This document shows positions 28,166 through 49,031 of a stretch of DNA of 49,143 nt, one piece after another. Made by a program: the position numbers and the translations under genes. Numbering within the stretch: the first letter of the stretch is position 1; each line of letters opens with the position of its first letter. The DNA comes from Deltaproteobacteria bacterium (GTDB lineage: Bacteria > Desulfobacterota > Binatia > HRBIN30 > JACQVA1): contig JACQVA010000015.1 in assembly GCA_016210005.1 (NCBI GenBank), forward strand, positions 1 to 49,143, given 5' to 3'. The notes beneath the pieces were generated by a model. The model made no database searches, was not told the origin of the DNA, and saw only the letters and a list, made by a program, of their open reading frames with translations.

Positions 28166-28173
28166 CACAGCCT

Positions 28174-28267: not shown

Positions 28268-28371
28268 CATGATTCCGCTCCCTGATAACGCTTAGCCCCT
28301 TACCCCCGCGTTTCGCCGGTTGTGGCCGAACGCTGGCACCAAAGGCACGGGCCGTGGTAAGAGCAAGTTGG

Positions 28372-28917
28372 ATGGCAATCAGCGCCAGCGAGTTTCAGGA
28401 GTTAGTTCGGGAATTGGAGCAACGCCCCGAATGGCGCCGCGAGCTGCGCCGCGTATTGCTCAGCGACGACGTCATCGACCTGCCGCGCTTGATGGGCGAG
28501 CTCGCCCAGGCGCAACGCGCCACCGAGGCGCGGCTGGAGCGTCTGACCGAGCGCGTCGATCAGCTCACCCAGCGCGTCGACCAGCTCGCGGCAGCGCAGC
28601 AAGAAATGACATCGCAACTCGCGCAGTTGACGCGCACGGTCGAACATCTGGTCAAGCAGATGCAACTGTTGACCAACCAGGTGGGCCGCCTGAAGGGATC
28701 GGACTGGGAGCGCCGCTACCGCGAACGCGCGCCCGCGTATTTCGCGCCGCTGCTGCGGCGCATCCACGCGCTGTCGAGCGAAGAGATCGCCGCGCTCCTG
28801 GACGATGCGGAAGAGCGCGGCCTGATCGCCGAAAAGGTCGTGACCGGCTTGACTGCGGATTCTCGCGTTCTCTACAGTTATGACGATGGGACGGATTCGG
28901 CAAGCGATTGCGGTTGA
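28372..28917 (+). CDS. Coiled-coil DUF3782-like protein lacking its C-terminal domain
   Basis: About 181 residues. The N terminus has SASEFQELVRELEQRPEW and a long heptad coiled coil (about 45-105, with LTERVDQLTQRVDQLAAAQQ). A basic helical region follows, then EERGLIAEK. Full-length relatives continue into a PD-(D/E)XK-like domain, but here the frame diverges into VVTGLTADSRVLY and ends. 28621-28837 matches 39208-39424 without gaps. The two copies are complementary halves. This copy keeps the N terminus and has probably lost enzymatic function. Confidence 0.65.
   Translation: MAISASEFQELVRELEQRPEWRRELRRVLLSDDVIDLPRLMGELAQAQRATEARLERLTERVDQLTQRVDQLAAAQQEMTSQLAQLTRTVEHLVKQMQLLTNQVGRLKGSDWERRYRERAPAYFAPLLRRIHALSSEEIAALLDDAEERGLIAEKVVTGLTADSRVLYSYDDGTDSASDCG
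28849..28878 (+). promoter_or_regulatory. Candidate promoter for retropepsin-like gene
   Basis: TTGACT and TACAGT are 18 bases apart, just after the breakpoint of the coiled-coil gene. The second in-frame ATG (28886) lies about where transcription would begin, so the message may be leaderless. Confidence 0.35.
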
Positions 28918-31692: not shown

Positions 31693-34664
31693 CGGGCGCT
31701 AGCCGTGCGAAGTGGCTTGATTGGCCCGGCCTGGCGGTTCTCGGTGGGGCCGGGCTCTACTTCGCCAGCTTCGTCCGCTACGGTTACAATCTCGGCGAGG
31801 ACGGCGATGTGGTCTACCTCATCTACCGCACTTTCTCCGGCCACCGCCCATACCTGGATTTTGCAAGCGGCTATACCCCGGGTTTCTTCTACTTCAACGC
31901 CGCGCTGTTTCATGTCTTTGGAGCCAATCTGCTTGTGTTGCGAGGCGCGCTGGCCGCGGTCAACGCGCTGGCCGTATTCGGGCTCTACCGCCTGGGTGCG
32001 GCGGTGATGCCGCCGCTGCCGGCGGCAGTGCCAGCGCTGGCGTACGTGGCGCTGATGCCGGTCTTTGCCGGCGAGTGCGCCATGTTCAACGTTCCATATC
32101 CTGCCTGGTATGTGGTGCTAACGTGGGTAACAAGCACACTGGCAGTGGTACGCTTCTGTGCCGGCGCGCAAGTGCGTTGGATGGCGGTGGCCGGGCTACT
32201 GGTAGGTGTCGCGTGCGCTTTCAAGCCCAACACGGGCGCCTTCAACCTGGCGGCGTTGGCGATGGTGTTGTTGTGCACCAGCGCGGCGCGCGGAACGTGC
32301 TGGCAGCGGCTGTTGTGGTGGAGCTTGCTGGCTGGGGTGTTGGGAGCCCTCGCCGCCGTATTTCACTTCCAGCCTGCAACTCGAGACGCGCGGCTCCTGC
32401 TGTGGCCTCTGTTTGCTATCGGGTTGCTGCGTCTCGTCGCTCCACAGCGGCAGTTGGGAACGCTGTCGCCGCGGCAGTTTGCCGCCGGGGCAACCGCACT
32501 AGTGGGCGGGTTTGCCGCGGTCACGCTGCCGTGGATGCTGTACTACCTGGCCGAGTTGGGCCGCGAGCGGTTTCTGCGCGAAGTGTTATTCATCGGCAGC
32601 GGTCACGAGCTGTTCTTTTTGCTGCCGATCAGAGACCTGGGTGCCGGTGATGCGGTGCTTGCGCTAGGGGCCGTGGCGTTTGTCATCGCCGGTCGAGCCC
32701 TGCGACGACTGGAGGTGGCGCCGCGGTTGGTGGCTGTGGCTGCGGCAACGCTGCTGTCGCTGGCGATGGCAGGAATCCTGACGCTGGCACCCATGCCGGA
32801 GGGTTTTTCGAATGCGGTCGTGCAGCGGGCACAGCATGTCAGCTTCGGGGCGGCGCTGATCGTGCACTGGGCGGGAGTTCTGGTTTTGGCGCGGCGCTTT
32901 TTCACCTCCACCGGCGCGGCGAATATGCCCACCAACGCCGCCATCGTCGCGCTCGCGGTCAGCGCGCCCTGCTTGTACCTCAGCATTTATCCCCGCAGCG
33001 ATTTCTTTCATTGGCTGCTGAGCGCACCCGTTACTCTGGTACTCGGGATGTGGTGCTATTGGCAGGTGGCGCGCACCTGGTTAGCCGGGGAGCGCTGGTC
33101 GCGTGTAGCGGCGTTGCCCGCCTGCGCGGCGGTGCTAATCCTGGCGGCACCGAACGTACTGCTCGCGACCCGGCTGCAGCTGACGCCCGCAGACGACCTC
33201 GCGCAGCTGAATCTGGCGCACGCCCCCGTGGTGCTGGAAGCCGGCCGGCGCCAGCGCTTCGACGACCTACAGCGTGCGGTCGAGTTCATCCGGCAGAACA
33301 GCGAGCCGCATGACACCTTGTTGGGGTTTCCTAATCTGCATTTGGTCAACTTCCTGTCCGCGCGCCAATCACCTGCGCGCTACGGCTACTTCCACCCCGG
33401 CTGGCCCGATCACGTGCTGGAAGCTCAGATCGTCAACGCGATCGAGTCGCGCCGGACACCGTTGATGATCCTGAACCGCGATCCCCTGCTCTTCATGGGG
33501 CATGCCTCGCTTTATTATCTGCTCCTGCGTCGGTACGTCCAGCGTAACTACGAACCGGCGGCGCGGTTTGGAAGCTACGATATCCTGCGACGGCGTGGTG
33601 CAAAGAGGGCAACTGTGGCCTCGCAACCGACCCCGACGGACGTACTAGCGCAGATACCGGCAGATTGCGCTGCGGCGCTGGCCGCAGCGGAACGCGAACG
33701 TTCAGGACGCAGCATCGAGCTAAGCGGATGCTGGCGGATGGGCGTCAGCCCGGCGCTGCAGGGGCGCGCAGTGCTGGCAGCGCGCGCTGCGCAAGATGCC
33801 GACGGCGCTTGGGCGCTGGCGGATGCCGTGCGCGCCGGCACGCTGGCGCCAGGCGCGATGCTGCCCGCCGTTCGAGTGATTGGCCAGCAGGCCGATGCCC
33901 GTACGGCCCCGGTGTTGGTCGCGGCGCGGGAGAGGCTCACGGGGCAGGCGCGCGATGAGTTGGATACCGCTCTGTTCAACGTAGCCAGCCGCGCATTCAT
34001 CCTACGCACGCTGTTCGTGCCGCGCACCGAAGGCGAGGAAGAGGTAAGGGCGGACCCGCGCATTGGCGCGGCAGCGCTGGCGTGGCTGGCCGAAGGCCAA
34101 TCGGACCTGCGGCTGCGTTTCGCCGGCGCCTGGATCGCCGGTGTGCGCGCCGACTCGGCCGCCGAACCGGGCTTGCGCCGCCTGCTGGCTGAACCCGACG
34201 TGGCCATGCAGGCGGTCGCCGCCGATGCGTTGCTGCGCTTGGGCGTGGCTGACGGCGTGATCGAACCGCTGCTGGCAGGATTGGCTTACGACGAGATGTT
34301 TCTGCCCGGTGCGGTGCTCGCCTGGAGTCAGGCCAACCCCGAACGCGCTCGCGTCGTGCTGGCGGAGGCGTTTCGCCGCGGCAACGACAAGCAGCGCGAG
34401 ACGCTGGCCTTCATCGCCGGCGCGCTCGGTGATCGGGTGCTGGGCGAGACGATTCTCGGCGGCATCACTGACCCTCTGCCGCGCGTACGCATCGCCGCCA
34501 TCTGGGCCGCCGGTGTGCTCCATCTCGAGGCAGCACGGGCTGACATTGAACGCGCGTGGCGTGGTGATTCGGTAGAGCAGGTGCGCGATTTCGCTCAGGC
34601 GAGCCTGGCGTGGCTGGGTGTGGGGGGTGAGAAGTCAGAAGCAAGAAGTAGAAGTGAGACGTGA
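31689..34664 (+). CDS. Giant GT-C-type membrane protein with HEAT-like tail, first copy
   Basis: A 991-residue protein. Residues about 15-520 form 10-12 helices with GT-C features: an acidic first loop YNLGEDGDVVYLIYRT, followed by YLDFASGYTPGFFYFNA, as in GT39/PMT-like enzymes that use polyprenyl-phosphate sugars. Residues about 520-640 are a periplasmic domain, and about 660-980 are HEAT-like helical repeats (AALAWLAEGQSDLRLRFAGA). The last residues EKSEARSRSET are encoded by the heptamer array at 34627. It is a tandem paralogue of the next gene. Function (glycan transfer) is inferred. Confidence 0.82.
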   Translation: MTGASRAKWLDWPGLAVLGGAGLYFASFVRYGYNLGEDGDVVYLIYRTFSGHRPYLDFASGYTPGFFYFNAALFHVFGANLLVLRGALAAVNALAVFGLYRLGAAVMPPLPAAVPALAYVALMPVFAGECAMFNVPYPAWYVVLTWVTSTLAVVRFCAGAQVRWMAVAGLLVGVACAFKPNTGAFNLAALAMVLLCTSAARGTCWQRLLWWSLLAGVLGALAAVFHFQPATRDARLLLWPLFAIGLLRLVAPQRQLGTLSPRQFAAGATALVGGFAAVTLPWMLYYLAELGRERFLREVLFIGSGHELFFLLPIRDLGAGDAVLALGAVAFVIAGRALRRLEVAPRLVAVAAATLLSLAMAGILTLAPMPEGFSNAVVQRAQHVSFGAALIVHWAGVLVLARRFFTSTGAANMPTNAAIVALAVSAPCLYLSIYPRSDFFHWLLSAPVTLVLGMWCYWQVARTWLAGERWSRVAALPACAAVLILAAPNVLLATRLQLTPADDLAQLNLAHAPVVLEAGRRQRFDDLQRAVEFIRQNSEPHDTLLGFPNLHLVNFLSARQSPARYGYFHPGWPDHVLEAQIVNAIESRRTPLMILNRDPLLFMGHASLYYLLLRRYVQRNYEPAARFGSYDILRRRGAKRATVASQPTPTDVLAQIPADCAAALAAAERERSGRSIELSGCWRMGVSPALQGRAVLAARAAQDADGAWALADAVRAGTLAPGAMLPAVRVIGQQADARTAPVLVAARERLTGQARDELDTALFNVASRAFILRTLFVPRTEGEEEVRADPRIGAAALAWLAEGQSDLRLRFAGAWIAGVRADSAAEPGLRRLLAEPDVAMQAVAADALLRLGVADGVIEPLLAGLAYDEMFLPGAVLAWSQANPERARVVLAEAFRRGNDKQRETLAFIAGALGDRVLGETILGGITDPLPRVRIAAIWAAGVLHLEAARADIERAWRGDSVEQVRDFAQASLAWLGVGGEKSEARSRSET

Positions 34665-34702
34665 GGCGTAAGGGGTGAGGAGTAAGAAGTGAGACGTGAG
34701 AA
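34627..34702. repeat. Purine-rich heptamer array spanning a stop and a start
   Basis: GTGAGAA, GTCAGAA, GCAAGAA, GTAGAA (one base short), GTGAGAC, GTGAGGC, GTAAGGG, GTGAGGA, GTAAGAA, GTGAGAC, GTGAGAA. The array covers the last codons and stop of the first GT-C gene and the start of the second. It supplies a GAGGAG word that may serve as ribosome site for the GTG at 34689. Confidence 0.85.
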
Positions 34703-37700
34703 GCTCAGCGGTACGGCGGCGCTGTGGGGCGGGCTGATGTTGGCCTTGCCGGTGGCGTACTTTGCCGCGCTGGCACCCTACGGGCTCAACGTCGATGACG
34801 AAGGGACGCTGCTGTACCAGATCTACCGCACCTATCTCGGGCAGGTCCTGTACGTGGACTTCCACGCCGGCTACACGCCGGGGCTCTTCTACTGGAACGC
34901 GGCGCTGTTTTCGTTGTTTGGCGTCAACGTGGTCGTGCTGCGGCTGTGCCTGGCGGTGGTGAATGGGCTGAGCGTGTACTGCCTCTACTGGCTAGCGCGC
35001 CGGCTGGGCGCGTCGCCGGTGGCCGCGGCCGTGGCCGGGCTGGTCTATCTTGCCTTCATCCCTTACTACGACGGCCAATTCGCGGCCTTCAACATCCCGT
35101 ACCCGATCTGGTACGTAACGCTCTTCTGGCTGTTGAGCGTCATAGCCACCGTGCGGTGGTGGGAGCGCGGGCAAACGTGGCATTGGTTGATCGCCGGTGC
35201 CTGTACCGGCGTGGTGTTCACCTTCAAGCCCAACAGCGGGTTACTCAATCTCGCGGTGTTGTTGATCGCCCTGACCCGTCTACAGCGGCCGCAGGAGAAT
35301 AACCCCGAAGTCGGCGGCGGTGTCCGGGGCCTGCTCGTTGCCGGCGAGCGCAGCCTGCGTTGGCTGATTCCCTGGGGGTTGGCGCTGGCGCTGACCCTGC
35401 TGTTCATCCGCGGTGCCGGCAGCGGGCGCCGCGAGGCGCTGCTGTTTGCGCTGCCGCTGGTGGTGCTGGTGGCCTACCAGCACGTGACTGCGCGCGGGCG
35501 CCGACTGGCGCGGGCGGTGGCGCCGCTAGCGATCTGGCGGGACCTGCTGTTGCTGGCGATCGGCTTCGCCGTCGTGATTCTGCCGTGGGTGGCCTACTTC
35601 TGGAGCCAGCTCGGCACCCGGCCGTTCTTGCGCGCGGTCCTATTCCTCGGCACCAATTTCGACCGCTTCTACTTCATGCCGTACCCCGAACTTGGGCAGG
35701 TGGACGCTGCTCTGGGCGTGGCGATCTTCGCGGCTTGGGCGGTGGGCGTGATGATTCGGCACGGCTGGCTACCGCTGCGACTGGTCGGCGGCGCAATCGC
35801 GTTGGTGCTGCTGGCCGCGTTCGCCTGGCTGTTGCGCCACCCGCCGCCGATGGTGGAAGGCTTCCAGATCTCGGTGGTGACCCGGCTGCGTAGCGTCGCT
35901 TTCGGGATCATCTTGGTGGCCGAGTGGTTGGCGATCGGCATCTACCTCGCCCCCGGAATTCGCGCTGGTCGCGCCGCCGCCGCGCAGCCGGACGCGGACC
36001 CGCGCCAGAACACCCACGCGGGCCTGCTGCTGCTCCTGCTGTTGTCGGCGGTGCTGATGCACATGCAGCTCTATCCGCGGACGGATTTCATGCACCTGGT
36101 GCCGGCTTGCCCGGGCATTCTGGTGTTGGTGGCGTGGCTGCTGGAGCGCTTGGCGCGTCAATGGGCGGCGGGCGCGCGCACCGCGCTGGGCCGCGGCGCG
36201 GTGGCGGCGGCGGCCGTGGCCCCGTTGTACCTCCTGGTCGTGATTCTGATCGCCCCCGCGCTGGTGCGCATTAGCTATCTGGCGCGCGCGTGGTGGGAGC
36301 ACGATGCCAGTGCGCTCGTGCGGCTGGACAATCCCCGCGCGCCGTTGGTGCTGGAGCCGGCTGCGGGCGAACCGTTCGAGTCATTGTCGGCCGCGGCCCG
36401 TTACCTGACCGAGCACGCGCGGCCCGACGAGTTCGTCTTCAGCTTCCCGGCGCTGGATCTGGTGAGCTTTCTGGCCGACCGGCAAAATCCGACCCGGCAC
36501 GGCTACTTCTATCCCGGCTGGCCTGGGCGCGAGGTGGAGGCCGAAGTCATTGACTCATTGCGCGCCCGGCAGCCGCGCTACATCGTCGCCCTGCATGGCC
36601 ACGCCATGTTCTTCATGTCGGCGCCGATCTACTACTTCAACCTGCGCCAGTACGTTACCGACAACTATCGGCTAGAGCGCAGGATCGGCAATCTGGACCT
36701 GTTGGCCCCGAATCACGCCGCCGGCCCGCCGGCAGCGGAGGGGATGGGCGATACCACCTTGAGCAATGCTATCACTCGCTGGCGGGCTGAGCTGCAGCAC
36801 CACGCGGGCAAGCGCGCGCGGCGTGTGGAGGCGGTGTTGGGCCGACTCTCTGCGGCCGACACTGCCGCGCTGGCTGCCACCGTGACCGCGCTCGATGCGC
36901 CGGCCCAGCGGGTAGTGGCCGGTCTGATTCGCAAGAGCCGCAGTGCTGAAGGGGCGGCGGCTCTGGCGCTGGCGTTGGAGGAGCCGTGGCTCGATCCAAC
37001 CATGCGCGAGCTGTTTCTGCGCGCCATTAGCGAAGTCGGCGATCTGCGGTCCGTGGCGCCGTTGTTGCGCCTGCTCAAGACCGCCGAGCCCAGCCAGCTC
37101 GGCGGTATCAGCGGCAGCCTTTTTACCCTGGCATCGCGCTCCTGGCTCGAAGACTACTGGTACGCGCCACCCGCGCGGCAGGCGGCAGAAATCCTCGAGG
37201 CCACGACTCTCAACCAGATTGTTCATTGGTTGGATAATCCGTGGGAGTCGCCGGCGCTGCGCTCTTTCGCGATTCGCGTTGCCGGTTGGCTCGGTGACCG
37301 TGCGGCCATTCCGTTCCTGGTCCGACTCGCCGGTGATCCGAACGAGGTGCCCAACCTGCGCGTCGACGCCGCGCACAGCTTGGTGGAGCTGGGTTTTGGA
37401 ACGCAGATGCTTTCAGCCATAGCCGGGCTGATACAGATCGACCCGCTGGTGCCTGCCGTCTTGACGGTGAAGCTGTATCCGCAGGCGCCGGCGTTGGCGC
37501 GTGCCTTGGTGGCCAAGGCGATGCGGGTGCCTAATGACGGCCTACGGGCGGAGGCCTTCTGGGTGGCGGCGGCGACGCATGACCCCGGGCTGATTGAGTC
37601 GCTACAGTATGGCTTGCAGGATGCGGTACCTGAGATCCGCATCGCTGCCGCCTGGGCACTCGCCAACGAAGGCGCGGTCGAGAGCATACCCGCGCTCGAA

Positions 37701-37787
37701 CAACTCGCCCGCGACGGCAATGACCAGGTGGCCGCCGTCGCCGCGCGTGCGGTGAGGAGGGTGAAGGGGGTGAGGGGTGGGGAATGA
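34689..37787 (+). CDS. Giant GT-C-type membrane protein with HEAT-like tail, second copy
   Basis: A 1,032-residue paralogue of the preceding gene. Helices start with ALPVAYFAALAPYGLNVDDE, the acidic loop motif YGLNVDDEGTLLYQIYRT and VDFHAGYTPGLFYWNA align with the first copy, and FNIPYPIWYV and FTFKPNSGLLNLA also match. Its C-terminal half (about 690-1,030) has HEAT-like repeats. The start GTG lies in the heptamer array; an ATG at 34738 is an alternative. Its last residues RVKGVRGGE again come from repeat DNA. The pair may act on two different acceptors or form a heterodimer; both are inference. Confidence 0.82.
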   Translation: MRREKLSGTAALWGGLMLALPVAYFAALAPYGLNVDDEGTLLYQIYRTYLGQVLYVDFHAGYTPGLFYWNAALFSLFGVNVVVLRLCLAVVNGLSVYCLYWLARRLGASPVAAAVAGLVYLAFIPYYDGQFAAFNIPYPIWYVTLFWLLSVIATVRWWERGQTWHWLIAGACTGVVFTFKPNSGLLNLAVLLIALTRLQRPQENNPEVGGGVRGLLVAGERSLRWLIPWGLALALTLLFIRGAGSGRREALLFALPLVVLVAYQHVTARGRRLARAVAPLAIWRDLLLLAIGFAVVILPWVAYFWSQLGTRPFLRAVLFLGTNFDRFYFMPYPELGQVDAALGVAIFAAWAVGVMIRHGWLPLRLVGGAIALVLLAAFAWLLRHPPPMVEGFQISVVTRLRSVAFGIILVAEWLAIGIYLAPGIRAGRAAAAQPDADPRQNTHAGLLLLLLLSAVLMHMQLYPRTDFMHLVPACPGILVLVAWLLERLARQWAAGARTALGRGAVAAAAVAPLYLLVVILIAPALVRISYLARAWWEHDASALVRLDNPRAPLVLEPAAGEPFESLSAAARYLTEHARPDEFVFSFPALDLVSFLADRQNPTRHGYFYPGWPGREVEAEVIDSLRARQPRYIVALHGHAMFFMSAPIYYFNLRQYVTDNYRLERRIGNLDLLAPNHAAGPPAAEGMGDTTLSNAITRWRAELQHHAGKRARRVEAVLGRLSAADTAALAATVTALDAPAQRVVAGLIRKSRSAEGAAALALALEEPWLDPTMRELFLRAISEVGDLRSVAPLLRLLKTAEPSQLGGISGSLFTLASRSWLEDYWYAPPARQAAEILEATTLNQIVHWLDNPWESPALRSFAIRVAGWLGDRAAIPFLVRLAGDPNEVPNLRVDAAHSLVELGFGTQMLSAIAGLIQIDPLVPAVLTVKLYPQAPALARALVAKAMRVPNDGLRAEAFWVAAATHDPGLIESLQYGLQDAVPEIRIAAAWALANEGAVESIPALEQLARDGNDQVAAVAARAVRRVKGVRGGE

Positions 37788-38398: not shown

Positions 38399-39187
38399 AT
38401 GTCCCAATCAGCAGGCATTTTCACTGGCGAGCGACTGGTGGCGGGTGATCCGCTGTTTGCGGTGGACTTCGCCCGGCACTTGGTGGCCTACCGCTACGCG
38501 CAAGAGCTGGCGCGTGGCAAGCTCGTGCTCGATGCCGGTTGCGGCGACGGCTACGGCAGTCACCTGTTGGCCGAGACCGCCGCACGGGTCGTGGGCGTCG
38601 ATCGCTCGGCCGACACGGTAGCGGTGGCGGCGCGGCGCTACCAGACGTCCAACCTGACGTATCGCGTGTGCGAACTGACACGGCTGGCGGATTTGGGTGA
38701 GCGCTTCGAGCTGGTCATCAACTTCCAGGTGATCGAGCACTTGGTCGATCCGCGGCCGTTCCTGCGCCAGGTGCAGGCGGTCTTGCGCCCGGGCGGCCGG
38801 CTGATCGTCACCACGCCGAACCGGGTCAATTCCCTCGTCGAGAACCCGTACCACGTCCACGAGTACGAGGCCGGCGAGTTGGCGGCGCTGCTGCGGGAGG
38901 TTTTCGCCCGAGTCGAATTGCGCGGCGTCTGCGGCAACGAGCGGGTAATGGCTTTCGAGCGCGCGCGTGGCGTGCAAGCCAATCGCATTCTCAGGCTCGA
39001 TCCCTTGGGCGTGCGCAACCTGCTGCCGCGCCAATTGATCGAGTGGGCCTATCCCAAGCTGGCGCGCCTGGTGCGCAAGAACATCGCCCGCGACAGCCGA
39101 GGGTCGGCTGAGGTCACCGCCGCCGACTTCTGCATCGGCAACGACGCCGCCGGCTCGGTGGATTTGCTGGCGATCTGCGGCGAGTAA
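38399..39187 (+). CDS. Class I SAM-dependent methyltransferase
   Basis: About 262 residues. SAM-binding motif I LVLDAGCGDGYGSHLLA, acidic VVGVDRS, motif FELVINFQVIEHLVDP, and LRPGGRLIVTTPNRVNSL are clear Methyltransf_11-like features. It is probably a glycan- or lipid-modifying enzyme in this cluster. A 94-base copy of its 3' end lies at 28174-28267, and 39202 onward is a relic of the coiled-coil gene in the same order as there. Confidence 0.88.
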   Translation: MSQSAGIFTGERLVAGDPLFAVDFARHLVAYRYAQELARGKLVLDAGCGDGYGSHLLAETAARVVGVDRSADTVAVAARRYQTSNLTYRVCELTRLADLGERFELVINFQVIEHLVDPRPFLRQVQAVLRPGGRLIVTTPNRVNSLVENPYHVHEYEAGELAALLREVFARVELRGVCGNERVMAFERARGVQANRILRLDPLGVRNLLPRQLIEWAYPKLARLVRKNIARDSRGSAEVTAADFCIGNDAAGSVDLLAICGE

Positions 39188-39201
39188 GTCGTGAAACGTG
39201 G

Positions 39202-39736
39202 ACGGGCGCGCAGTTGGCGCGCACGGTCGAACATCTGGTCAAGCAGATGCACCTGCTGACCAACCAGGTGGGCCGCCTGAAGGGATCGGACTTGGAGCGC
39301 CGCTACCGCGAACGCGCGCCCGCGTATTTCGCGCCGCTGCTGCGGCGCATCCACGCGCTGTCGAGCGAAGAGATCGCCGCGCTCCTGGACGATGCGGAAG
39401 AGCGGGGCCTGATCGCCGAAAAGGAAAGCGAAGAGCTGCTGGCCGCCGATGTCGTCGTGCGCGGGGTGTCGCGCCGCGACGGCGCCGTGGCGTACCTGGC
39501 GGTCGAGGTCTCGGGCGGTATCGGGGTGGACGCGGTATCGGGGTGGACGATGTAGCGCGGGCGGTGCGCCGTGCGGAGCTGCTTCAGAAGCTCACAGGCG
39601 AGCCGGCGGTGGCGGTGGTAGCCGGCGGGTGCCGGTGCACCCCGAAGGCCGGCGCGCCCGCACCTCAGACGGCATCGCTCTGCTACCGGTCGCCGATCTT
39701 CTCGCCACGGTCGCGGATGGAACACTGTGGTCGTGA
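39202..39736 (+). pseudogene. Broken coiled-coil/DUF3782-like gene, second copy
   Basis: The 39208-39424 part matches 28621-28837. Here the N-terminal part of the coiled coil is missing (about 350 bases fewer than the first copy), while the C-terminal domain follows: ESEELLAADVVVRGVSRRDG, AVAYLAVEVSGG. A 17-bp tandem duplication (39516-39549) then shifts the frame to a stop (IGVDAVSGWTM). Without it the reading would continue IGVDDVARAVRRAELLQKLTG. A second shift near 39627 precedes HPEGRRARTSDGIALLPVAD. It is a triply damaged gene. Confidence 0.85.
39516..39549 (+). repeat. 17-bp tandem duplication
   Basis: CGGTATCGGGGTGGACG is present twice head to tail (39516-39532, 39533-39549). Since 17 is not a multiple of three, it shifts the frame of the coiled-coil gene. 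Removing one unit restores a sensible reading. Confidence 0.95.
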
Positions 39737-40130: not shown

Positions 40131-40142
40131 AAGGTGACAAAT

Positions 40143-42557
40143 ATGCATACTCCCAGGCAGCTGTATACGGGGATCGCGTTTTCGGCGGCAGCAGTACTCA
40201 TTCTCGAGATCGGCCTGACGCGCATCTTCTCCTATACCATTTGGTATCATTTCGCGTATCTCACCATCAGCGTAGCCCTGCTCGGATTCGGCGCGAGTGG
40301 GTCATTTCTGACGGTGTTTCGAGGCGCGAATACGCGCCGCGATTTCCTAACGTGGGCTGCAGTGGGTGGGCAGGTGGGCGTGGTACTTGCGCTGGCAGTC
40401 GTCAGTGCAGTGCCGCTTGATCCACTCAAGGTGGTCGCCGACAAGAGCGCGCTTGGTAGGCTGCTGCTCTACTACGTAGTGGTCACGTTGCCCTTCTTTG
40501 CCGGCGGCCTCTGTGTCGCTGGCCCTCTGCAGGCCCGCCCCGAGCTCGTGAGCCGATTGTACTTCGCTGACTTGCTGGCAGCTGGTATCGCCTGCGGCTT
40601 GATTGTGCCGTCCATATGGTGGATCGGTACGCCCATCACCACCGGGATGGCGACCGTAGCGTTCGGTGTTGCCGCATGGGCGTATGCGGCACCCCAGGTT
40701 CGCTTGCGTCAGGGCGTCATTGCCGCGGTCCTCGGGCTAGCAGGGGTGTTGCTGTGCGCCCAAGCCACCTTTACCCCAGCCCCAACGAAGTTCGTGTCGC
40801 GATTTCTGGCTGCGGCGGGTGCCCAGCTTGGGTTTAGTCGCTGGACGCCGATCAACCGCGTCGATGTCGTGACCTTCGATCCTCCGCCCCGCACTGGCAG
40901 TTACGTCAATTGGGGGATCAGCCCGAATTACAAGGGTCAGGGCCCCGGCTACTTCATGGTGGGCAACGACGGCGACTCGTGTGCGGTCATGTACAACTGG
41001 GACGGCAAACCGGAGACCATAGAGTTCCTGCGTCACCACGTTCTGCGCGTGCCGTATCTACTGCTGTCGGAACCGAGCGTAGTCGCGATTGGCCTAGGAG
41101 GCGGAGCCGACGTTCTGAACGGCTTGTTGAACGGCGCGCGCTCGATTGTCGGTGTCGAGATCAACCCCGCCACCGTTTATGCCGGGAAAACTCTCTTTCG
41201 AGAGTTTAACGGGAACATTCTGAATCATCCGAAGGTTGATGCGGTTGCGAGCGAGGGACGCAGCTTTCTGCGGACACGCAATGCGCACTATGATCTCATT
41301 GAGATCAACAGCGTCGATACGCTTTCCGCTCTCTCGACCGGCGCCTACGTCTTGTCCGAAAGCTACCTCTACACGGCCGACGCCGTGAGTGACTATCTTT
41401 CGCACCTTAACCCGGGCGGCATCTTCGCAATGGCGGTTGGCGATTTGAACGACGAGCGCGAGCCCCCGCGACATACCTTGCGGTTGGCCTCCGTCGTAAG
41501 ACGGGCGCTCGAGATGCGCAAGGTGCAAGAACCGGCGCGACATGTGCTCGTCGTTGGCACCGGAAATAACTTGCCCCTCACTCACACACTAGTGAAGAAC
41601 GAGCCCTTTACCCAAGCCGAGGTCGCCGCCGTCGAAGCCTTTGTCAATCAGGAGGGCTTTGTCTTCTGGCATCGACCAGACCAGGTTCTGCCGACCCGGA
41701 CCGCCGAGATCCTAACCTGGGACCAACCGCGCTTGTCGCAGTTCTATCGCGAGTACTACCTCAATCTGCAGCCCACGACCGATGAATCTCCATTCTTCTT
41801 CAACTTCTACAAGTGGTCGGCTCTCTTGCAGCGCTCAGGCCGCGCCGATGTTAGCTACGACCGAACGCTGGCGACTGGGCAAATTGTTATGGTGGTGATG
41901 CTGATTCAGTCCGTCGTATTCGGCGCCGGCCTAATCCTGCTACCTCTGCTCTTTGTGCGCACTGGCGGAACAGGCCTACTGGCACAACGCGCTGGCTATC
42001 TAGCGTACTTTGCCGCGTTGGGTATTGGGTTTATCTTGCTCGAAATCAGTTTCATCCAGCGTTTTGTGCTATTCCTAGGATATCCAACGTATGCGTTGAC
42101 CGTAGTCCTGCTCTCCCTCTTGGTGTTTACGGGCCTCGGGAGTTATCTAACGGACAAGATTCACGACGGCTTCGGGCGCGTCCTCTTGTGGCGATTGTTG
42201 TGGCTGCTGGTTGTTGCCGGCGCCTTCCACTTAGGGCTGACTAGTTTGTTTAACCTGTTTCTCGGGGTGCCGCTGGCGGGGCGGGTTCTCTTGTCCATCG
42301 TTCTGCTGGCGCCGCTCGGATTGATATTGGGGGCGTTTTTCCCTCTCGGAATACGCGTCCTCGAGCTTCGAGCGTCGCCGCTCATCCCGTGGGCATGGGG
42401 CGTGAACGGCTGTGCAACGGTGGTGGGGACCATCGTGGCTGTGATGATGGGTATGACCTGGAGCTTTCGCGAGGTCACTTTGGCCGCGGTTGGAGCCTAT
42501 GCCGTGGGGGTCCTTGCCCTCGCTAGCGTGGAGCGGCGAGCACAGCGGGAGCCTTGA
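40143..42557 (+). CDS. Spermidine-synthase-like polytopic membrane protein, copy 1
   Basis: About 804 residues. N-terminal seven or so helices open with VLILEIGLTRIFSYTIWYHF and GFGASGSFLTVF. A soluble spermidine-synthase-like SAM core follows (about 320-480): VVAIGLGGGADVLNGLLNGA, VGVEINPA, YDLIEINSVDTLSALSTGAY, with no DSTDP motif. Further helices end the protein. The ATG at 40143 has AAGGTGA five bases before it. Composition is visibly less GC-rich than neighbours. It is a paralogue of 45032-47479. Confidence 0.85.
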   Translation: MHTPRQLYTGIAFSAAAVLILEIGLTRIFSYTIWYHFAYLTISVALLGFGASGSFLTVFRGANTRRDFLTWAAVGGQVGVVLALAVVSAVPLDPLKVVADKSALGRLLLYYVVVTLPFFAGGLCVAGPLQARPELVSRLYFADLLAAGIACGLIVPSIWWIGTPITTGMATVAFGVAAWAYAAPQVRLRQGVIAAVLGLAGVLLCAQATFTPAPTKFVSRFLAAAGAQLGFSRWTPINRVDVVTFDPPPRTGSYVNWGISPNYKGQGPGYFMVGNDGDSCAVMYNWDGKPETIEFLRHHVLRVPYLLLSEPSVVAIGLGGGADVLNGLLNGARSIVGVEINPATVYAGKTLFREFNGNILNHPKVDAVASEGRSFLRTRNAHYDLIEINSVDTLSALSTGAYVLSESYLYTADAVSDYLSHLNPGGIFAMAVGDLNDEREPPRHTLRLASVVRRALEMRKVQEPARHVLVVGTGNNLPLTHTLVKNEPFTQAEVAAVEAFVNQEGFVFWHRPDQVLPTRTAEILTWDQPRLSQFYREYYLNLQPTTDESPFFFNFYKWSALLQRSGRADVSYDRTLATGQIVMVVMLIQSVVFGAGLILLPLLFVRTGGTGLLAQRAGYLAYFAALGIGFILLEISFIQRFVLFLGYPTYALTVVLLSLLVFTGLGSYLTDKIHDGFGRVLLWRLLWLLVVAGAFHLGLTSLFNLFLGVPLAGRVLLSIVLLAPLGLILGAFFPLGIRVLELRASPLIPWAWGVNGCATVVGTIVAVMMGMTWSFREVTLAAVGAYAVGVLALASVERRAQREP

Positions 42558-42645
42558 CAGCAGGGCGCATGGCACGCATTACGGCCTTGAGATCGGCGCG
42601 GGGCGTGCGCTCGGGAGGCCTGTTAACAGCGTCCGTCCGACCAAC

Positions 42646-43714
42646 CTACCCAAGGAGGATGCGAGTAAGTCGTATGCCTAGGAAGGCACGTGCTAGTTGG
42701 GCGAGCCCTAGCGAGCCAGCTAGGGCCGCTACGAACTTCAGGAGGCTTGCCAGACCCCAAGGCATCGCGAAAGGGACTAGTTGGAAGATTAAACCCAGCG
42801 CTTCTACAAAGAAGAAGTGGTATAGGTAGATCGGGTACGTCAGCTGGCTCAGGGTGACCGCCCACGACGGAGCCCTGCCGGTGGGACGAATGAGGACGAA
42901 GCCTGCGATTACACTGTAGGTGATAATACTGAGCGACGCACCACGCCAGGCACAGGGGCGCGAGGGCGAGACTAGCGCCAGTGCCCAGGCAGTCAGTGCA
43001 GACACGCCTAATAGCGCCCAGCCGACATTGCGGTTGCACCAGAACTGTCGCGGCGCCGGCGCAGGCAGCCCTGGGGCAGCTCGGGGCCAGTACGCGGCAA
43101 GTGTCCATCCCGAGAGGAAGTACCCCCACCAGCGCAGTGGGCTGCGGAACCTCCAGTAGAAGGGCCGACCCGCTGGCGGCGTTAGGAGATCGGCAAAAGG
43201 GTCGTGGCCCGAGAGGGCGAGGTAGCCAGACAGCAGGAAGAAGCCGAGCGCCACTAACAGCGCAGCCCTGCCACACCGGGACAGCACCCAGCCGAGTACG
43301 AGTGCTCCACATAGGATGGGGACAAAGTAGTAGATGCCGAAGGCAGACCCGCACAGCAGTGCTTGAGCGGCGCCCCGGGCACACTCAGCAGTAGTTGTAC
43401 TTGGGGGGGCTCGTTCTACAGCCGCTCGAAATGCTAAGGCCAGCATGCTGGCAACCAGTATACGGCGTAAAGAGTCGCCAAAGTCGGGAGCCTAGATCCG
43501 CACACGGTATTGGATGCGGTCTGTAGCTCACGAAACCAGACGCAAACAAGAAGGACGGGACAGCCGAGATCGTGAGGTTGCCGAAGAGCCCCAGTGGAAC
43601 CGCCTGAGACGGCGAGAAGCTAAGGAAAGCGTGAATCCATACAACTGCGATAATGGCGCATGCCTTGAGAGTATCAATCCACGGAATACGGGTCGGGGAA
43701 GTCTGGTGAGGCAT
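42646..43714 (-). pseudogene. Frameshifted acyltransferase-3 (OafA/YrhL type)
   Basis: The N-terminal part reads IPWIDTLKACAIIAVVWIHA and SAVPSFLFASGFVSYRPH, then SRLWRLFTPY; the C-terminal part continues in a second frame as LVASMLALAFRAAVE and, further on, YPIYLYHFFFVEALG. One extra base at 43459 separates them. Joined, it is a full 10-helix acyltransferase-3 protein of about 350 residues that acylates glycans. Single-base nature means a sequencing error is possible, but nearby genes also decay. Confidence 0.8.
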
Positions 43715-43809
43715 CGGACGTCAGGGAGACCAGTCAATGGCCACGCTGCCCCCGTCTAATACAGCGGTACGGAGGCGGTCAACCGGCAGGGCAGGCTATG
43801 GTGAGCATT

Positions 43810-44035
43810 ATGACTGTGAATCCTCGCCGAACAAGGGGTGGCTACGTGGACACGCTCTGCAGGGTTTTGGTGGTTGCTGTGTTGGTGGGGTGCGTTACCT
43901 CGTCCAGCCAGGTGCTGGAGCTGACCGGGTCAGCTCATCTACCGGACCAGCCTTGATGGCGAAGTCGGACCTGTTTGGCACACGACAAGCGGATCAGACG
44001 CGCGCGCGTACTGGCGCCGTGTCGGTGAGGCCTGA
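43810..44035 (+). pseudogene. Decayed LELTG-family secreted protein, copy A
   Basis: The ATG at 43810 starts MTVNPRRTRGGY, a hydrophobic lipobox-like VVAVLVGCVTSSSQVLELTG, then stops. Another frame from 43934 continues LIYRTSLDGEVGPVWHTTSG and ends at 44035. The order (signal, LELTG, LIY, GPVWHT) matches the intact family member at 47823. One base shift near 43933 and loss of the rest of the gene make it a relic. Confidence 0.78.
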
Positions 44036-45015
44036 AGGGTGAGGAGTAGGGGGTGAGGTGAGGCGGTGGGGGGCGGAGGATGGACGGGTGGCGCCACGGG
44101 CGAACACCTCGAGCACAGCAAGAAGAAGCGACCCTGGCGGAGTGATAGTCAGCCCATTCCGAGGCCCGAGCGGCCCTTCGGTGCCCGGCCATCAAGGATG
44201 TGGCGTGAGGCGGTGCTGGTGTTCGCGTCGTCTGTTGGCATCCCCTTGAGGGGCGGACCGATGGTCCGCCCGACCCCTCCGACCCCATTTGTCAATCTTG
44301 CAACCATGGTCCAACCTCTGTAGAAGACGCGTACATCCATGTCGATTTCCTGACGGGCATATGTTGCGCTTTGGCGTGGTTGAGCGGCTGGCTACCCCCT
44401 TGGCCTTGGCACGTGGCGACACTGCTCGGTTTGTGATGTGGAAGTCGATCCGCCGACCCCATCTCGGGGGTGGCGTAACCGCAACCGTTATCAAGGTTGC
44501 GTTCCAGGTGGTCGTGGTTTGGTGGGTTGCGGGGCGCTTCTTCGGCGGTTTCGCTGTGCCCCGCCTTGTGACTCCGCCCAAGATGCCGAGAGAACGCAAC
44601 CTCGGGCGGCGACTGCGTGCTTTCGTTGACGTCGTTAAGTCATTAAGAACAGGTTCCCGGTGGGGCTGTGCGTATCGCGCCGGTAGGTGACTCCACGATG
44701 AGCTCCGTCGACGGTGCCGAAACGACTGTGATTCCGTACCTGCTGGGGAGTGAGCTGTGTCGGTGCTTGGGCCGATCGGATCTTGAAACAATCGACTGCA
44801 GTGAGGTCGGCCTTTACGCCGGTGGTGCCACCTTGTTCGTAACGAAACTGCTCGGGGCTGGGATTGACGTAATCGTGTGCGGCGTACCGCTTCGAGCACT
44901 TCCACGAGACCCCGAGAGCGAGTGGGTCAACCCGGATCAGCAGCGAGGTGGGTCTCGCAGATCTCATCCGTCTGTCGCGGGTTGGCACCATGAAACTGGG
45001 CTAGAGTGAAACGGG
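44036..45015. other. Gene-poor region with no recognised gene
   Basis: A short purine-rich heptamer-like run lies at 44036-44072. Frames of 60-240 residues occur on both strands (such as 44289-44690 and 44668-45009), but none has domain, signal or ribosome site that I can support. The 44668-45009 frame (MRIAPVGDSTMSSVDGAETT) is the best of them and may be a truncated gene. Region probably held genes that have decayed. Confidence 0.35.
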
Positions 45016-45031
45016 TAAGGAGGGTATGAAA

Positions 45032-47479
45032 ATGAATCAGACAGGTACACCCAAAGCCGCCGAGCGGTTGCCGCGCCGCATCTTCCCAACGGTCTTCCTG
45101 CTGTCGGTCGCGGTATTGATGGTACAGATTGCCCTAAGCCGGATCTTCTCGTTCACGATCTGGTACCACTTCGCCTACATCTCGGTGAGCCTCGCGCTGC
45201 TGGGCTTCGGGGCGAGCGGCTCTATGCTGGCGGCGTTTCCATCGCTTGGCAGCGAGCCAATCGGGCGCACCATCGGGGCCTACTCGGCTCTCTGTGCGGT
45301 CACAACGGTGGTGATGTTGGTGGTGATCGGCACGGTCCCGCTGCATCCTTTCGAGGCGTTGTCGAAAGGCAGCGAGTTGGCGAAGTTCGTGCTGTACTTC
45401 TTGACCGTGTCGGTTCCGTTCTTCTTCGCGGGTCTCTCGATTACGATCGCGTTGCGGGCGGCGGGCCCCGAGGTCAATCGCCTCTACTTCTGGGACCTCA
45501 TTGGCGCCGGCCTCGGCTGCGCGCTGGTGGTATGGGCCATCGACTGGCTGGAAACGCCGCGGGTCGTCATGCTGGTGGCATTGCTGTTTGCGCTGGCAGG
45601 CCTGATTGCCAGCAGTGGCGAGTCGTCCGCGGTTCGCAACTGGAATCTTGGAATCAGCGTGGTGGTACTGGTACTGATCGGCCCGCTCCCGGGCCGATTG
45701 CCCTTCACGCCGAGTAAAGACAAGAACATCTCCAACTGGCTGCAGACCGGCGTGACCCACTACACGAAGTGGAGCTCGATCTTCCGCACGGACTTAATGG
45801 GCGGTCGCGAGGCCGAAGCCGACTTCGGTGGGTACCGCAGGCAAGGCACCAGTCCGCGGTACAAGGGGGAGGCGCCACCGTATCGCATGATCGTCCACGA
45901 CGGCGGGGCTGCTGCGATCATGTACCAGGTCACTGGCGGGAAGCGAGGCCTGGAGATGTTTCGGCATCACGTACTCACGGCGCCATACGTCGTGCGCACG
46001 AATCCGGAGGTGCTGATCATCGGCGTCGGCGGCGGGGCTGATGTCATCAACGGGCTGCTGAACGGCGCGGCGAAGATCACCGGTGCGGAGCTGGATCCGT
46101 TGACTGTCGACCTGATCACGCGGCAGTACCGCGACTTCACCGGCGGGATTTACGATCAGCCGAACGTGAAAATTCACGCCAGTGAGGGCCGCCACTTCGT
46201 GCGCTCGACGGATCAGCGCTTTGACATGATTCAGATAACGGGGGTTGATACCCTAGCAGCCCTGTCGAGCGGTGCGTACGTTCTCGCCGAGAATTACCTC
46301 TACACGGTGGATGCGTACCGCGATTATTTTCGCGTCCTGCGCGACGACGGGTTACACAGCATTGGCACACTCGACTTTCACCCGCGGGCCAGCTACCCGC
46401 GGCACGCGCTCCGGTTCGCCGCGCTCTCGTATGACGCCTTGCGCGAGCGCGGCGTCGCGCGGCCCCACGAGCACGTGATGGTGGTGGCCACGCGCGACGG
46501 GGTTTCGAAGATCGAGGTGTTGACCAAGCTGCAGCCGTTTTCGGACGCCGAAATCACGACTATGGAACAGTTCATCGACGAGAACGAGTTTCAGGCCTGG
46601 TATCTCCCCAACCGCCCGGCGCGCCAACAGGCCGTGTTTCGTACCCTGCTTGAAGAATCCGCGGTGAACCGCGAACGCTTCTTCACGGACACGTTTCTAG
46701 ACCTGCGCCCGCCCACTGATGATCGGCCGTTCTTCTTCAGCTACTACAAGTGGCGCAATTTGTTTGAGCACCGCGACGAGATCGACAAGGGCCACACCCT
46801 CGCAACCGGGCAACTGGTGCTGGTTTTGATTTTGGCTCTGGCGATCTTGTTCTCGATCGTGGCGATCGCGCTGCCGATGATCCGTGCGGGCACCGGCGCC
46901 GCCAGGATGCCCGGCCATTGGGGCTTCTTGGTCTACTTTGCCGCCCTCGGCGCCGGGTTCATTTTCGCCGAGATTTGCTTCGTGCAGAAGTTCATTCTGT
47001 TTCTTGGCTACCCGACTTACTCGCTGACGGTCATGCTGTTCTCGTTTCTGACTGCCGCCGGCATCGGGGCGCATCTCAGCGGCCGGCTGCCGGGTAATCC
47101 GGCGCGCACGCTGCCGGCGCTGGCCGGTGTGCTGACGGCGCTGGTGGCCTTCTACCTCCTGGCGCTGCCGCCAATATTCGAGGCCTCACTCGCCGCGGGG
47201 CTGGCGGTGAAGGTGGTGCTCACATTCGTGTTATGCGCGCCGCTTGGTGGGCTCTTGGGGATGTTTTTTCCTTACGGCATCCGGCTCACGTCGGCGCTCA
47301 ATCGTGACTTTGTCGCGTGGGCGTGGGCCATCAACGGCTGCCTGACGGTAGTGGGATCGGTCAGTAGCATCATCATCGCCATGACGTACGGGTTTTCATC
47401 GGTGATCGTGCTGTTTCTAGCCATCTACTGGCTGGGCGTGCTGAGCTTTGTGCGCACGTACGCCAGAGTGCAGGCGTGA
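45032..47479 (+). CDS. Spermidine-synthase-like polytopic membrane protein, copy 2
   Basis: About 815 residues, paralogous to copy 1: VLMVQIALSRIFSFTIWYHF, GFGASGSMLAAF, VLIIGVGGGADVINGLLNGA, and FDMIQITGVDTLAALSSGAY. Again the spermidine-synthase Asp-Ser/Thr-x-Asp-Pro motif is absent. A C-terminal group of about six helices has GYPTYSLTVMLFSFLTAAGI. AAGGAGG lies eight bases before the ATG at 45032. Base composition is GC-richer than copy 1, so the copies may have different origins. It is followed by two LELTG-family genes. Confidence 0.87.
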   Translation: MNQTGTPKAAERLPRRIFPTVFLLSVAVLMVQIALSRIFSFTIWYHFAYISVSLALLGFGASGSMLAAFPSLGSEPIGRTIGAYSALCAVTTVVMLVVIGTVPLHPFEALSKGSELAKFVLYFLTVSVPFFFAGLSITIALRAAGPEVNRLYFWDLIGAGLGCALVVWAIDWLETPRVVMLVALLFALAGLIASSGESSAVRNWNLGISVVVLVLIGPLPGRLPFTPSKDKNISNWLQTGVTHYTKWSSIFRTDLMGGREAEADFGGYRRQGTSPRYKGEAPPYRMIVHDGGAAAIMYQVTGGKRGLEMFRHHVLTAPYVVRTNPEVLIIGVGGGADVINGLLNGAAKITGAELDPLTVDLITRQYRDFTGGIYDQPNVKIHASEGRHFVRSTDQRFDMIQITGVDTLAALSSGAYVLAENYLYTVDAYRDYFRVLRDDGLHSIGTLDFHPRASYPRHALRFAALSYDALRERGVARPHEHVMVVATRDGVSKIEVLTKLQPFSDAEITTMEQFIDENEFQAWYLPNRPARQQAVFRTLLEESAVNRERFFTDTFLDLRPPTDDRPFFFSYYKWRNLFEHRDEIDKGHTLATGQLVLVLILALAILFSIVAIALPMIRAGTGAARMPGHWGFLVYFAALGAGFIFAEICFVQKFILFLGYPTYSLTVMLFSFLTAAGIGAHLSGRLPGNPARTLPALAGVLTALVAFYLLALPPIFEASLAAGLAVKVVLTFVLCAPLGGLLGMFFPYGIRLTSALNRDFVAWAWAINGCLTVVGSVSSIIIAMTYGFSSVIVLFLAIYWLGVLSFVRTYARVQA

Positions 47480-47500
47480 GGGACGCACACCAGGAGCAGC

Positions 47501-47751
47501 ATGGGATGGCGACGAACGTTGAAGGCGTGCGCGGCGTTCGGGCTGATCACGATCAGCCTCGTGACGCCGCGAGGCGCGCACGCGCTGGAGCTGACCGGCG
47601 TAGGGGCTTGAACCTGCGTGTCGGGCCGTTCAGGCACACGTCGAATGGGCCCGCGCGGCCACTCGGCTTCAGCCAGGCGCCGCCGCCCTGACTGCGCGGT
47701 GCCCCGCTGGATAACGAGGGCAAGTGGAGATCGCCAAGCGCTCACCCCTAA
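47501..47751 (+). pseudogene. Decayed LELTG-family secreted protein, copy B
   Basis: The ATG at 47501 (AGGAG upstream) opens MGWRRTLKACAAFGLITISL and GAHALELTGVGA, then a stop. A second frame continues NLRVGPFRHTSNGPARPLGF, and a third APLDNEGKWRSP. These align in order with the intact gene at 47823 (GPFWHTASGSGGHPLGI, APLANNENGE). At least two shifts are needed, so it is a pseudogene lying between the membrane protein and the intact copy. Confidence 0.85.
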
Positions 47752-47771
47752 GCTTCCCGAAGGGCGAGCGG

Positions 47772-47793
47772 ACAGCCCTTTTCAACGGGCTGT
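47772..47793. terminator. Hairpin between copy B and intact copy
   Basis: ACAGCCC and GGGCTGT pair around an eight-base loop (TTTTCAAC), followed by TAGTTAG. The stem is only seven bases and there is no true T-run, so termination is possible but not certain. Confidence 0.4.
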
Positions 47794-47822
47794 TAGTTAG
47801 GGGGTTGGAGTGACGGAAGGGT

Positions 47823-49031
47823 GTGAAAGTGATTAGCAGAAGCTTCTTGCGGGCGTGCCGGCCCCGGGCGGTGGTCCGTCTGACCCGTCGCCCCTTATCT
47901 TTGATCCGTGGCTTAGGCCTCGCGCCTTACGCCTCGCGCCTTACGCCTCGCGCCTTACTTCTTGTCGTTGCTGTGGTAGTGGTGCTCGTGGTGGTAGCTC
48001 CGGTGCAAGGGCTGGAGCTGACTGGGGCGTTGATTTACGGCGTGAGGCTCAGGGGAACTACGGGGCCATTCTGGCATACGGCAAGCGGCTCAGGCGGCCA
48101 CCCGCTCGGCATCACCGATGCTAGCCCGGCGCATATCAGGACAGCACCGCTGGCTAACAACGAGAACGGCGAAATCGATCTGGAACTCCGGCCGGGCCGT
48201 TATATCTTCACACTGCTATGGCAGTGTCCGATGGCAGACTTCCCTCCGTTCACAGCACTCAACTTGTATTTTGACGGTGACAATCTGACCCCGGGAATCA
48301 GCGCTGTGGTTCAACTCGCGCGGTCGTTTACCGCGTTCCAAGTGGACAAGAGACCAAAGGCGCTTTCCCTGTACCTGCGCGAGGTCGACAACATCGGGGC
48401 GCTCTTTTTTGACGATAGCGAACTGCGCGCCGAGTTAGGCGTAGCCTTCTACATGCATACCGGTGTGCCGAACACGCCGCTATGGAGGCCGAGTGATCTG
48501 ATCAATATGGATCGTGTAGGATTGCATGAGTTCAGCCTCGACAAGATGCCTGACAGTGTGCTGGTGCTGGAGTTGGTTGTCGGCCCTTCGCAGCAGGCCG
48601 CGTCGCCCCCGACGGTGGTTGTGCCCGGCACGCGGCTGCGGGCGGGAGACAAGGCCCAAGCGGTGCAGCCGCGGTTAAGTGGTGACCTGCGGCCCCCCAC
48701 AGCCGCTCAGCCAGTACCTGGTGTGCCTTCCCCACGCCCGCGGCCCGAGCCACGGGCGGCGGTTAAGGGCGGCCAGACGCCGACACCGGGTGCAGCCGGA
48801 GCGGCTACGCTAGGTGAGACGCCCGCGGCCGAGGCGACCTCCACTACCCTGACGCCCGGGCCGGAGCGCACACCGCAGAGTTCGGCAACGCCGAAAGCAT
48901 CGCTGACGCCAAGTGGTGGCACCAGGACCCCGGGTGGCACCACCGCCGCGGTGAGTCGTCCAACCGCGCGCGTCAGCGCAACGCCGGCGCCGGATGCTAC
49001 GCCGACGCCTGTCAAGGCTCGCCTAAACTGA
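47823..49031 (+). CDS. Intact LELTG-family secreted protein with Pro/Thr-rich tail
   Basis: About 402 residues, unrecognised. After a basic N terminus a signal peptide (ALLLVVAVVVVLVVVAPVQG) precedes GLELTGALIYGVRLRG, GPFWHTASGSGGHPLGITDA and APLANNENGE. The mature domain (about 60-260) is beta-rich, and residues about 265-402 are a low-complexity Pro/Thr/Ala linker typical of extracellular proteins. The start is uncertain: GTG at 47823 is used, and codons in the N-terminal region are made by the heptamer array at 47922. Paralogous relics lie at 43810 and 47501, next to spermidine-synthase-like proteins. Confidence 0.72.
   Translation: MKVISRSFLRACRPRAVVRLTRRPLSLIRGLGLAPYASRLTPRALLLVVAVVVVLVVVAPVQGLELTGALIYGVRLRGTTGPFWHTASGSGGHPLGITDASPAHIRTAPLANNENGEIDLELRPGRYIFTLLWQCPMADFPPFTALNLYFDGDNLTPGISAVVQLARSFTAFQVDKRPKALSLYLREVDNIGALFFDDSELRAELGVAFYMHTGVPNTPLWRPSDLINMDRVGLHEFSLDKMPDSVLVLELVVGPSQQAASPPTVVVPGTRLRAGDKAQAVQPRLSGDLRPPTAAQPVPGVPSPRPRPEPRAAVKGGQTPTPGAAGAATLGETPAAEATSTTLTPGPERTPQSSATPKASLTPSGGTRTPGGTTAAVSRPTARVSATPAPDATPTPVKARLN
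47922..47968. repeat. Heptamer array inside a signal-peptide coding region
   Basis: CCTCGCG, CCTTACG, CCTCGCG, CCTTACG, CCTCGCG, CCTTACT follow one another in 7-base steps, encoding GLAPYASRLTPRALLL in the intact LELTG gene. It is the most regular array in the window. Confidence 0.85.

Follow-up and report, generated by a model that had tools for sequence, protein, structure and literature searches.

Membrane proteins with a SpeE-like domain and a lineage-specific secreted family lie side by side in a Binatia locus

Introduction

Two paralogous membrane proteins of the spermidine-synthase-like kind, accompanied by an unfamiliar secreted protein in one intact and two decayed copies, raise the question of whether the two families work together. 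The locus lies on contig JACQVA010000015.1 (C15) of assembly GCA_016210005.1, a 5.9 Mb genome in 268 contigs from Binatia, a class with little study so far; the window analysed here is the whole stretch of 49,143 nucleotides. We refer to the membrane proteins as MSpeE-1 and MSpeE-2 and to the secreted family as LELTG, names coined in this analysis. An earlier reading made without database searches (the sequence-only reading) had proposed that they form a functional pair, perhaps for modification or export of the secreted protein. Judged by distribution and gene order, LELTG and MSpeE are not an obligate pair, and our best explanation of the whole, which we hold at about even confidence, is an envelope or surface locus in which two unrelated families stand side by side. 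The features concerned are as follows.

40134-42557, + strand: MSpeE-1, membrane protein with a central SpeE-like (Spermine_synth) domain; 807 aa, open
43816-44005, + strand: decayed LELTG copy 1; signal-peptide-like stretch, LELTG at 43915, GPVWHT in a shifted frame
45026-47479, + strand: MSpeE-2; 817 aa, open, 14 predicted transmembrane segments
about residues 224-597 of MSpeE-2: SpeE-like domain, predicted extracytoplasmic
47501-47748, + strand: decayed LELTG copy 2; signal-peptide-like stretch, LELTG at 47585, GPFRHT in a shifted frame
47823-49031, + strand: intact LELTG protein; 402 aa, signal peptide judged by eye
48012-48602, + strand: core of the intact LELTG protein, with the Thr/Pro-rich tail running to 49028

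Results

LELTG and MSpeE across the order

The two MSpeE proteins are indeed paralogues, 40% identical, and their duplication is old, each copy having a branch of about 0.98 changes per site in a tree that supports their sister grouping at only 81/61. The intact LELTG gene lies downstream of MSpeE-2, for which the earlier description of a membrane protein followed by LELTG holds; it is loose for MSpeE-1, since the first decayed copy is found 1.3 kb further on, beyond a disrupted acyltransferase gene on the opposite strand.

Profile searches place LELTG in 7 of 148 genomes of the class, at nine loci that all fall within one order, and MSpeE adjoins it at only two of them, the window and contig C36 of G012, a genome from another family of the same order. 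The gene order there is that of the window: a PMT-HEAT protein, a methyltransferase, two MSpeE genes and LELTG. This matching order, together with the 53% and 69% identity of the PMT-HEAT and methyltransferase proteins, indicates that one inherited block underlies both adjacencies. Within that block, one G012 copy of MSpeE groups with both window copies (96/95) and the other with those of G010 and G006, so far as the tree can tell the tandem pairs of the two genomes not being simply the same two genes.

At the remaining seven loci no MSpeE was found in the DNA searched. Three of these (G010, G004 and contig C6 of G012) have 7.8 kb or more to either side, and each of the other four is close to a contig end in one direction. 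The settings, with gene names given by eye, are diverse: LELTG sits between purB-like and mrp-like genes in G010 and G004, and elsewhere near a manC-like gene or a glycosyltransferase. G010 (CALAMI010000011.1, 'Candidatus Binatia bacterium', of the same order as the window genome) carries both families, on different contigs. G004 keeps LELTG and gave no MSpeE match, either with MSpeE-2 (E<=1e-20) or with the G010 protein (E<=0.001); nine genes of the G010 MSpeE locus are conserved there with MSpeE absent, and 86 bases (L115, 8886-8973) separate the matched stretches of the neighbours that would flank it.

Viewed from MSpeE, LELTG lies within 6 kb at 2 of 22 loci in 12 genomes of the order, several of these loci being cut by contig ends, and a third MSpeE gene of the window genome (C266) has no LELTG in 16 kb. 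Among 15 genomes of the order, five have both families, two only LELTG (G004 and G008, the latter with one partial, weak MSpeE match at E 7.5e-7), seven only MSpeE and one neither, a distribution that gives no sign of correlation. G006 is counted as MSpeE only in this tally; it was dropped as evidence for MSpeE without LELTG, because its contig ends where LELTG would begin.

Could MSpeE nevertheless modify the LELTG protein, for instance by methylation, or export it? The adjacency in two families of the order, the position of the remnants close to both MSpeE genes and the conserved mature N terminus of LELTG would all fit, and a precedent exists in the fungal enzyme NHMT, a seven-transmembrane protein with a SpeE-like domain that acts on secreted LPMOs (PMC10349129). 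However, LELTG persists in G004 without MSpeE, the two are on separate contigs in G010, seven of the nine LELTG loci show no MSpeE in the DNA searched, although just three of these seven are visible for 7.8 kb or more to either side, and MSpeE is common without LELTG. We therefore reject the functional pair as the leading view, on the two adjacencies in nine, their origin in one syntenic block and the lack of MSpeE in G004, and regard it as unlikely. That LELTG would neighbour MSpeE beyond expectation is likewise not borne out; outside that one block, its occurrence is largely random with respect to the membrane proteins.

Membrane topology and exported neighbours of MSpeE

MSpeE belongs to a much wider family. 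Homologues occur in 17 plasmid records from Pseudomonadota and Bacillota, with hosts that include Microvirga, Phyllobacterium, Paraburkholderia, Legionella and Paenibacillus; they belong to the same family over most of their length, and are 24-33% identical to MSpeE in the nine records that cover at least 80% of it. RefSeq names them 'SAM-dependent methyltransferase' or 'spermine synthase' (SAM, S-adenosylmethionine), and the Legionella one a hypothetical protein.

The family-average hydropathy profile comprises seven helices, the SpeE-like domain and seven further helices, with two weak peaks within the domain left out of the count. Across 22 Binatia and 10 plasmid sequences, the loops on the side of the N terminus hold a mean of 18.0 Lys and Arg against 4.8 on the other side, with the bias present in all 32. 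By this charge bias the SpeE-like domain is predicted to lie outside the membrane, a prediction that depends on an odd number of helices before it, and the domain is thus most likely extracytoplasmic.

The plasmid neighbourhoods are consistent with such a location. Twelve of the 17 regions were viewed (10 of them annotated) and H2 and H3 were assessed by coordinates, with H8, H15 and H16 left out. A gene for a PCMT-like (protein-isoaspartate-type) methyltransferase lies directly upstream of the MSpeE homologue in nine records, namely six of the ten annotated regions, L124 by sequence, and NZ_CP069356 and NZ_CP024940 by coordinates; in L126 the PCMT-like gene is on the opposite strand. The two proteins scanned match PF01135 (E 9e-61 and 2e-59). 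Among the best 40 of 385 plasmid matches to this methyltransferase, the nine closest relatives come from the same nine records, at 59-100% identity. All seven of its N termini viewed carry a signal-peptide-like stretch, in L118, L122 and L124 only upstream of the annotated or assigned start, and the enzyme is apparently exported. In L116-L118, L122-L124 and L127 (plasmids of Microvirga, Paraburkholderia, Phyllobacterium and Sinorhizobium) the two genes form a possible operon. On a Paenibacillus plasmid (L120, 5932-9490), CcdA and TlpA-type genes come after the MSpeE homologue; here too the partners are extracytoplasmic.

Within Binatia, 6 of the 22 loci (L071, L084, L086, L088, L095 and L061) encode a sulfatase-like protein no more than 6 kb from MSpeE, where 1.47 would be expected (P 0.0024, in a test chosen after the neighbours had been seen), and five of the six proteins have a signal-like N terminus by eye. 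Together the PCMT-like and sulfatase-like neighbours point to exported partners for MSpeE, and not to LELTG in particular.

The same surroundings could suggest a transport role, in which MSpeE would bring SAM, or some other small molecule, through the membrane to separate exported methyltransferases and the SpeE-like domain would bind or gate rather than catalyse. The 14 predicted transmembrane segments of MSpeE and, on plasmids, the PCMT-like neighbour with its signal-peptide-like start accord with this idea. We give it little credence, as the 22 Binatia MSpeE loci searched hold no PCMT-like gene, no transporter family in Pfam matches, and the conserved Asp, Glu, Tyr and Thr residues of the soluble domain suggest catalysis.

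MSpeE departs from spermidine synthases

The resemblance to spermidine synthase is real and weak. MSpeE-2 matches PF01564 at 24.9 bits (cut-off 22.9) and MSpeE-1 at 19.4 bits, below the cut-off, and the nearest PDB sequences are spermidine synthases (1inl, E 2e-8). Against the NCBIfam equivalog, MSpeE-2 scores 35.7 bits where the cut-off is 260, and no NCBIfam model named fused MFS/spermidine synthase is among the hits of either window protein at E<=1.

In aminopropyltransferases, the acid of the GxG(D/E)G motif binds decarboxylated SAM, and Asp170 of 1inl is the catalytic Asp of spermidine synthase. Of 25 MSpeE matches, 22 were aligned and placed in the tree (G007:C6, G009:C79 and G005:C59 were left out). 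In every one of these the Asp of the 1inl GGGDGG motif is replaced by Gly, and the position of Asp170 holds Ser, Thr, Gly, Val, Asn or Ala, never Asp, with Thr or Asn in the window proteins. The motif acid is also missing by eye from all ten plasmid homologues inspected. By contrast with these losses, no sequence departs from G333 or G337, and all retain an acid at residue 355 (Glu in 21, Asp in one). With both key acidic residues missing from all 22 aligned sequences, the MSpeE proteins are by sequence probably not spermidine synthases. That they are membrane-bound spermidine or spermine synthases, as the PF01564 matches and the best PDB matches might suggest, is very improbable given the absent acids and scores far below the NCBIfam equivalog cut-offs.

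The LELTG family and its decayed copies

Searches of Pfam, NCBIfam and PDB sequences gave nothing usable for LELTG, and the sequence-only reading was right to call it unrecognised; weak library matches (Pfam E 0.067 and 0.22; NCBIfam 0.042 and 0.059; PDB 0.32-0.53) were disregarded. A single-sequence scan of 98 relatives drew matches from 18 genomes at E<=0.1; those outside the order are absent from the profile matches. Two single-protein scans of broader genome contigs recovered G010 alone, and a scan of the plasmid collection did not find the family. It is a small, lineage-specific secreted family that had no name before.

In its members a signal peptide, judged by eye, precedes a core some 200 residues long, and a Thr/Pro-rich tail without an anchor completes the protein. 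Residues invariant in the cores of the first seven members include G5, W21, T23, L32-G33, L83-N84 and G89, and the window core is 36-39% identical to those of G012-C36, G010 and G004. Thr, Pro, Ser and Ala make up 0.56-0.65 of the six tails read in frame, that of G012b being out of frame and excluded. The start of the mature protein is conserved, as [LV]x[LI][ST]G in six of the first seven members and S-T-I-T-G in the seventh. Between G010 and G004 the cores show a proportion of nonsynonymous differences (pN) of 0.206 and of synonymous differences (pS) of 0.743, with synonymous sites near saturation, and the G004 core appears to be under purifying selection. An AlphaFold model from a two-sequence alignment was too poor for use (mean pLDDT 42), and a Foldseek search with it, which gave no match at E<=0.001, is uninformative. 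We also considered a sortase substrate of the LPXTG kind and rejected it, as the LELTG motif sits at the mature N terminus and is not a C-terminal sorting motif; the Thr/Pro-rich C terminus has no sortase-type hydrophobic anchor.

The count of one intact and two decayed copies in the window has stood up. The motif pair [LV]x[LI][TS]G ... [GA][PQ]x[WR][HQR]T occurs nine times in the 1,027,652 strand-bases searched, in the seven LELTG family genes and the two remnants and nowhere else. Taken alone, each remnant is a weak local match of 33.1 bits, a score also reached by the top one among 200 first-order Markov resamplings. On the evidence of the motif pair, we take both decayed copies to be real. 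A relaxed search at 21 MSpeE loci yielded no further remnant that we trust; its best match besides the G012 gene (32.0 bits, E 0.003) falls within the sulfatase reading frame of L071 and was not accepted, being about as strong as the window remnants yet without the motif pair. Assembly error in a contig of what, with its 268 contigs, appears to be a metagenome-type genome is a highly improbable cause of the decay, since the remnants are unlike the intact gene and each other and their similarity fades after about 30-60 residues, a pattern for which one miscalled base would not suffice.

Other features of the locus

The remaining features include the genes of the inherited block.

31689-34664, + strand: second PMT_2-HEAT membrane protein
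34689-37787, + strand: PMT_2-HEAT membrane protein of the inherited block, with 53% identity to its G012 counterpart over 564 residues
38330-39187, + strand: class I methyltransferase of the inherited block, with 69% identity to its G012 counterpart
42646-43714, - strand: acyltransferase-3 gene, disrupted, in two frames, with PF01757 in both halves

The first two form a tandem pair (31689-37787) in which a PMT_2 glycosyltransferase-like membrane part is fused to C-terminal HEAT repeats. The acyltransferase-3 gene, in its two frames, runs on the opposite strand in the interval from MSpeE-1 to MSpeE-2. By eye, the segments 28170-28917 and 39100-39555, about 11 kb apart, are similar, each comprising the end of a methyltransferase gene (27 residues, 81%) and the next coiled-coil open reading frame. 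A putative SGNH remnant before MSpeE-2 (44821-45000) reached only E 0.054 and is not claimed.

Discussion

We propose that the window holds an envelope or surface locus inherited within one Binatia order. MSpeE-1 and MSpeE-2 are members of a family that is widespread in bacteria and has 14 predicted helices; the SpeE/SAM-binding signature is retained in its central domain, and the acids of aminopropyltransferases have been lost. Facing the extracytoplasmic side, as is most likely, this domain would use SAM or a related compound as donor of a group, in the simplest case methyl, for envelope or surface molecules that are exported or held in the membrane. The LELTG proteins would be order-specific, Sec-exported surface proteins, independent of MSpeE, that multiply and decay in a process of birth and death. 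The sequences, their distribution, the synteny, the absent residues and the charge bias are observed, and the side of the membrane, the methyl transfer and the surface role are inferred. Of the modification idea in the sequence-only reading, action of a SpeE-like membrane protein on molecules that have been exported is plausible; its pairing with LELTG is not supported.

Several observations weigh against this proposal. Two families of the order have LELTG beside MSpeE, the window alone three times over, and these adjacencies leave room for some functional link. The topology was derived from hydropathy and the positive-inside rule only, and a miscount by a single helix, in either direction, would place the domain on the other side. 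The AlphaFold model of MSpeE from a two-sequence alignment is poor (mean pLDDT 39), and with no usable structure the SpeE fold rests on sequence profiles. As to partners, the PCMT-like gene is lacking at all 22 Binatia loci and at four of the ten annotated plasmid regions viewed, and the sulfatase excess is subject to the choice of test already noted. Finally, SAM would be needed outside the cytoplasm, for which we found no bacterial precedent in the open-access literature; nothing on point appeared there for bacterial membrane SpeE-like proteins, fused MFS/spermidine synthases or periplasmic SAM methylation.

A more ambitious reading is possible, and we lean clearly against it: bacteria could possess a system, so far undescribed, that modifies proteins or glycans beyond the cytoplasmic membrane in a SAM-dependent way, with MSpeE, as a 14-helix protein whose SpeE-like domain is extracytoplasmic, at its core. 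In Pseudomonadota MSpeE would work with the exported protein-isoaspartate-type methyltransferase, and in Binatia it would act on lipoprotein sulfatases, LELTG proteins or surface glycans. Such a system, too, would require extracytoplasmic SAM.

Under our preferred explanation, in which the two families are neighbours, untying LELTG from MSpeE spares the naming of a wrong system. Database entries of this large bacterial membrane family carry the names 'spermine synthase' or 'SAM-dependent methyltransferase'; its members seem to be neither enzymes of polyamine synthesis nor cytoplasmic. If the domain does act outside, SAM chemistry would take place in the bacterial periplasm. The candidate role of MSpeE as an extracytoplasmic SAM-dependent protein is the interesting lead of this analysis.

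MSpeE can be aligned by profile with SpeE (PF01564) in the SAM-binding region; it departs from SpeE in its length of about 810 residues, its 14 predicted transmembrane segments and the loss of both key Asp residues. A second comparison is with fungal NHMT (AN4663), which acts on secreted proteins (LPMOs). Its N-terminal seven-transmembrane region spans about 215 residues, and the spermidine-synthase-like domain behind it is without the acid of GxG(D/E)G, a loss from which its authors argue that the enzyme is a methyltransferase and not a spermidine synthase (PMC10349129). They report the seven-transmembrane sequence in fungi only. The substrate of NHMT is an N-terminal histidine (PMC10349129), whereas the mature LELTG proteins, with cleavage judged by eye, begin with Leu or Val in six of seven members and Ser in one, and never with His. 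NHMT, at 558 residues, is also without the second set of helices found in MSpeE. The likeness is one of architecture: both proteins place seven hydrophobic segments before a SpeE-like domain from which the GxG(D/E)G acid has gone.

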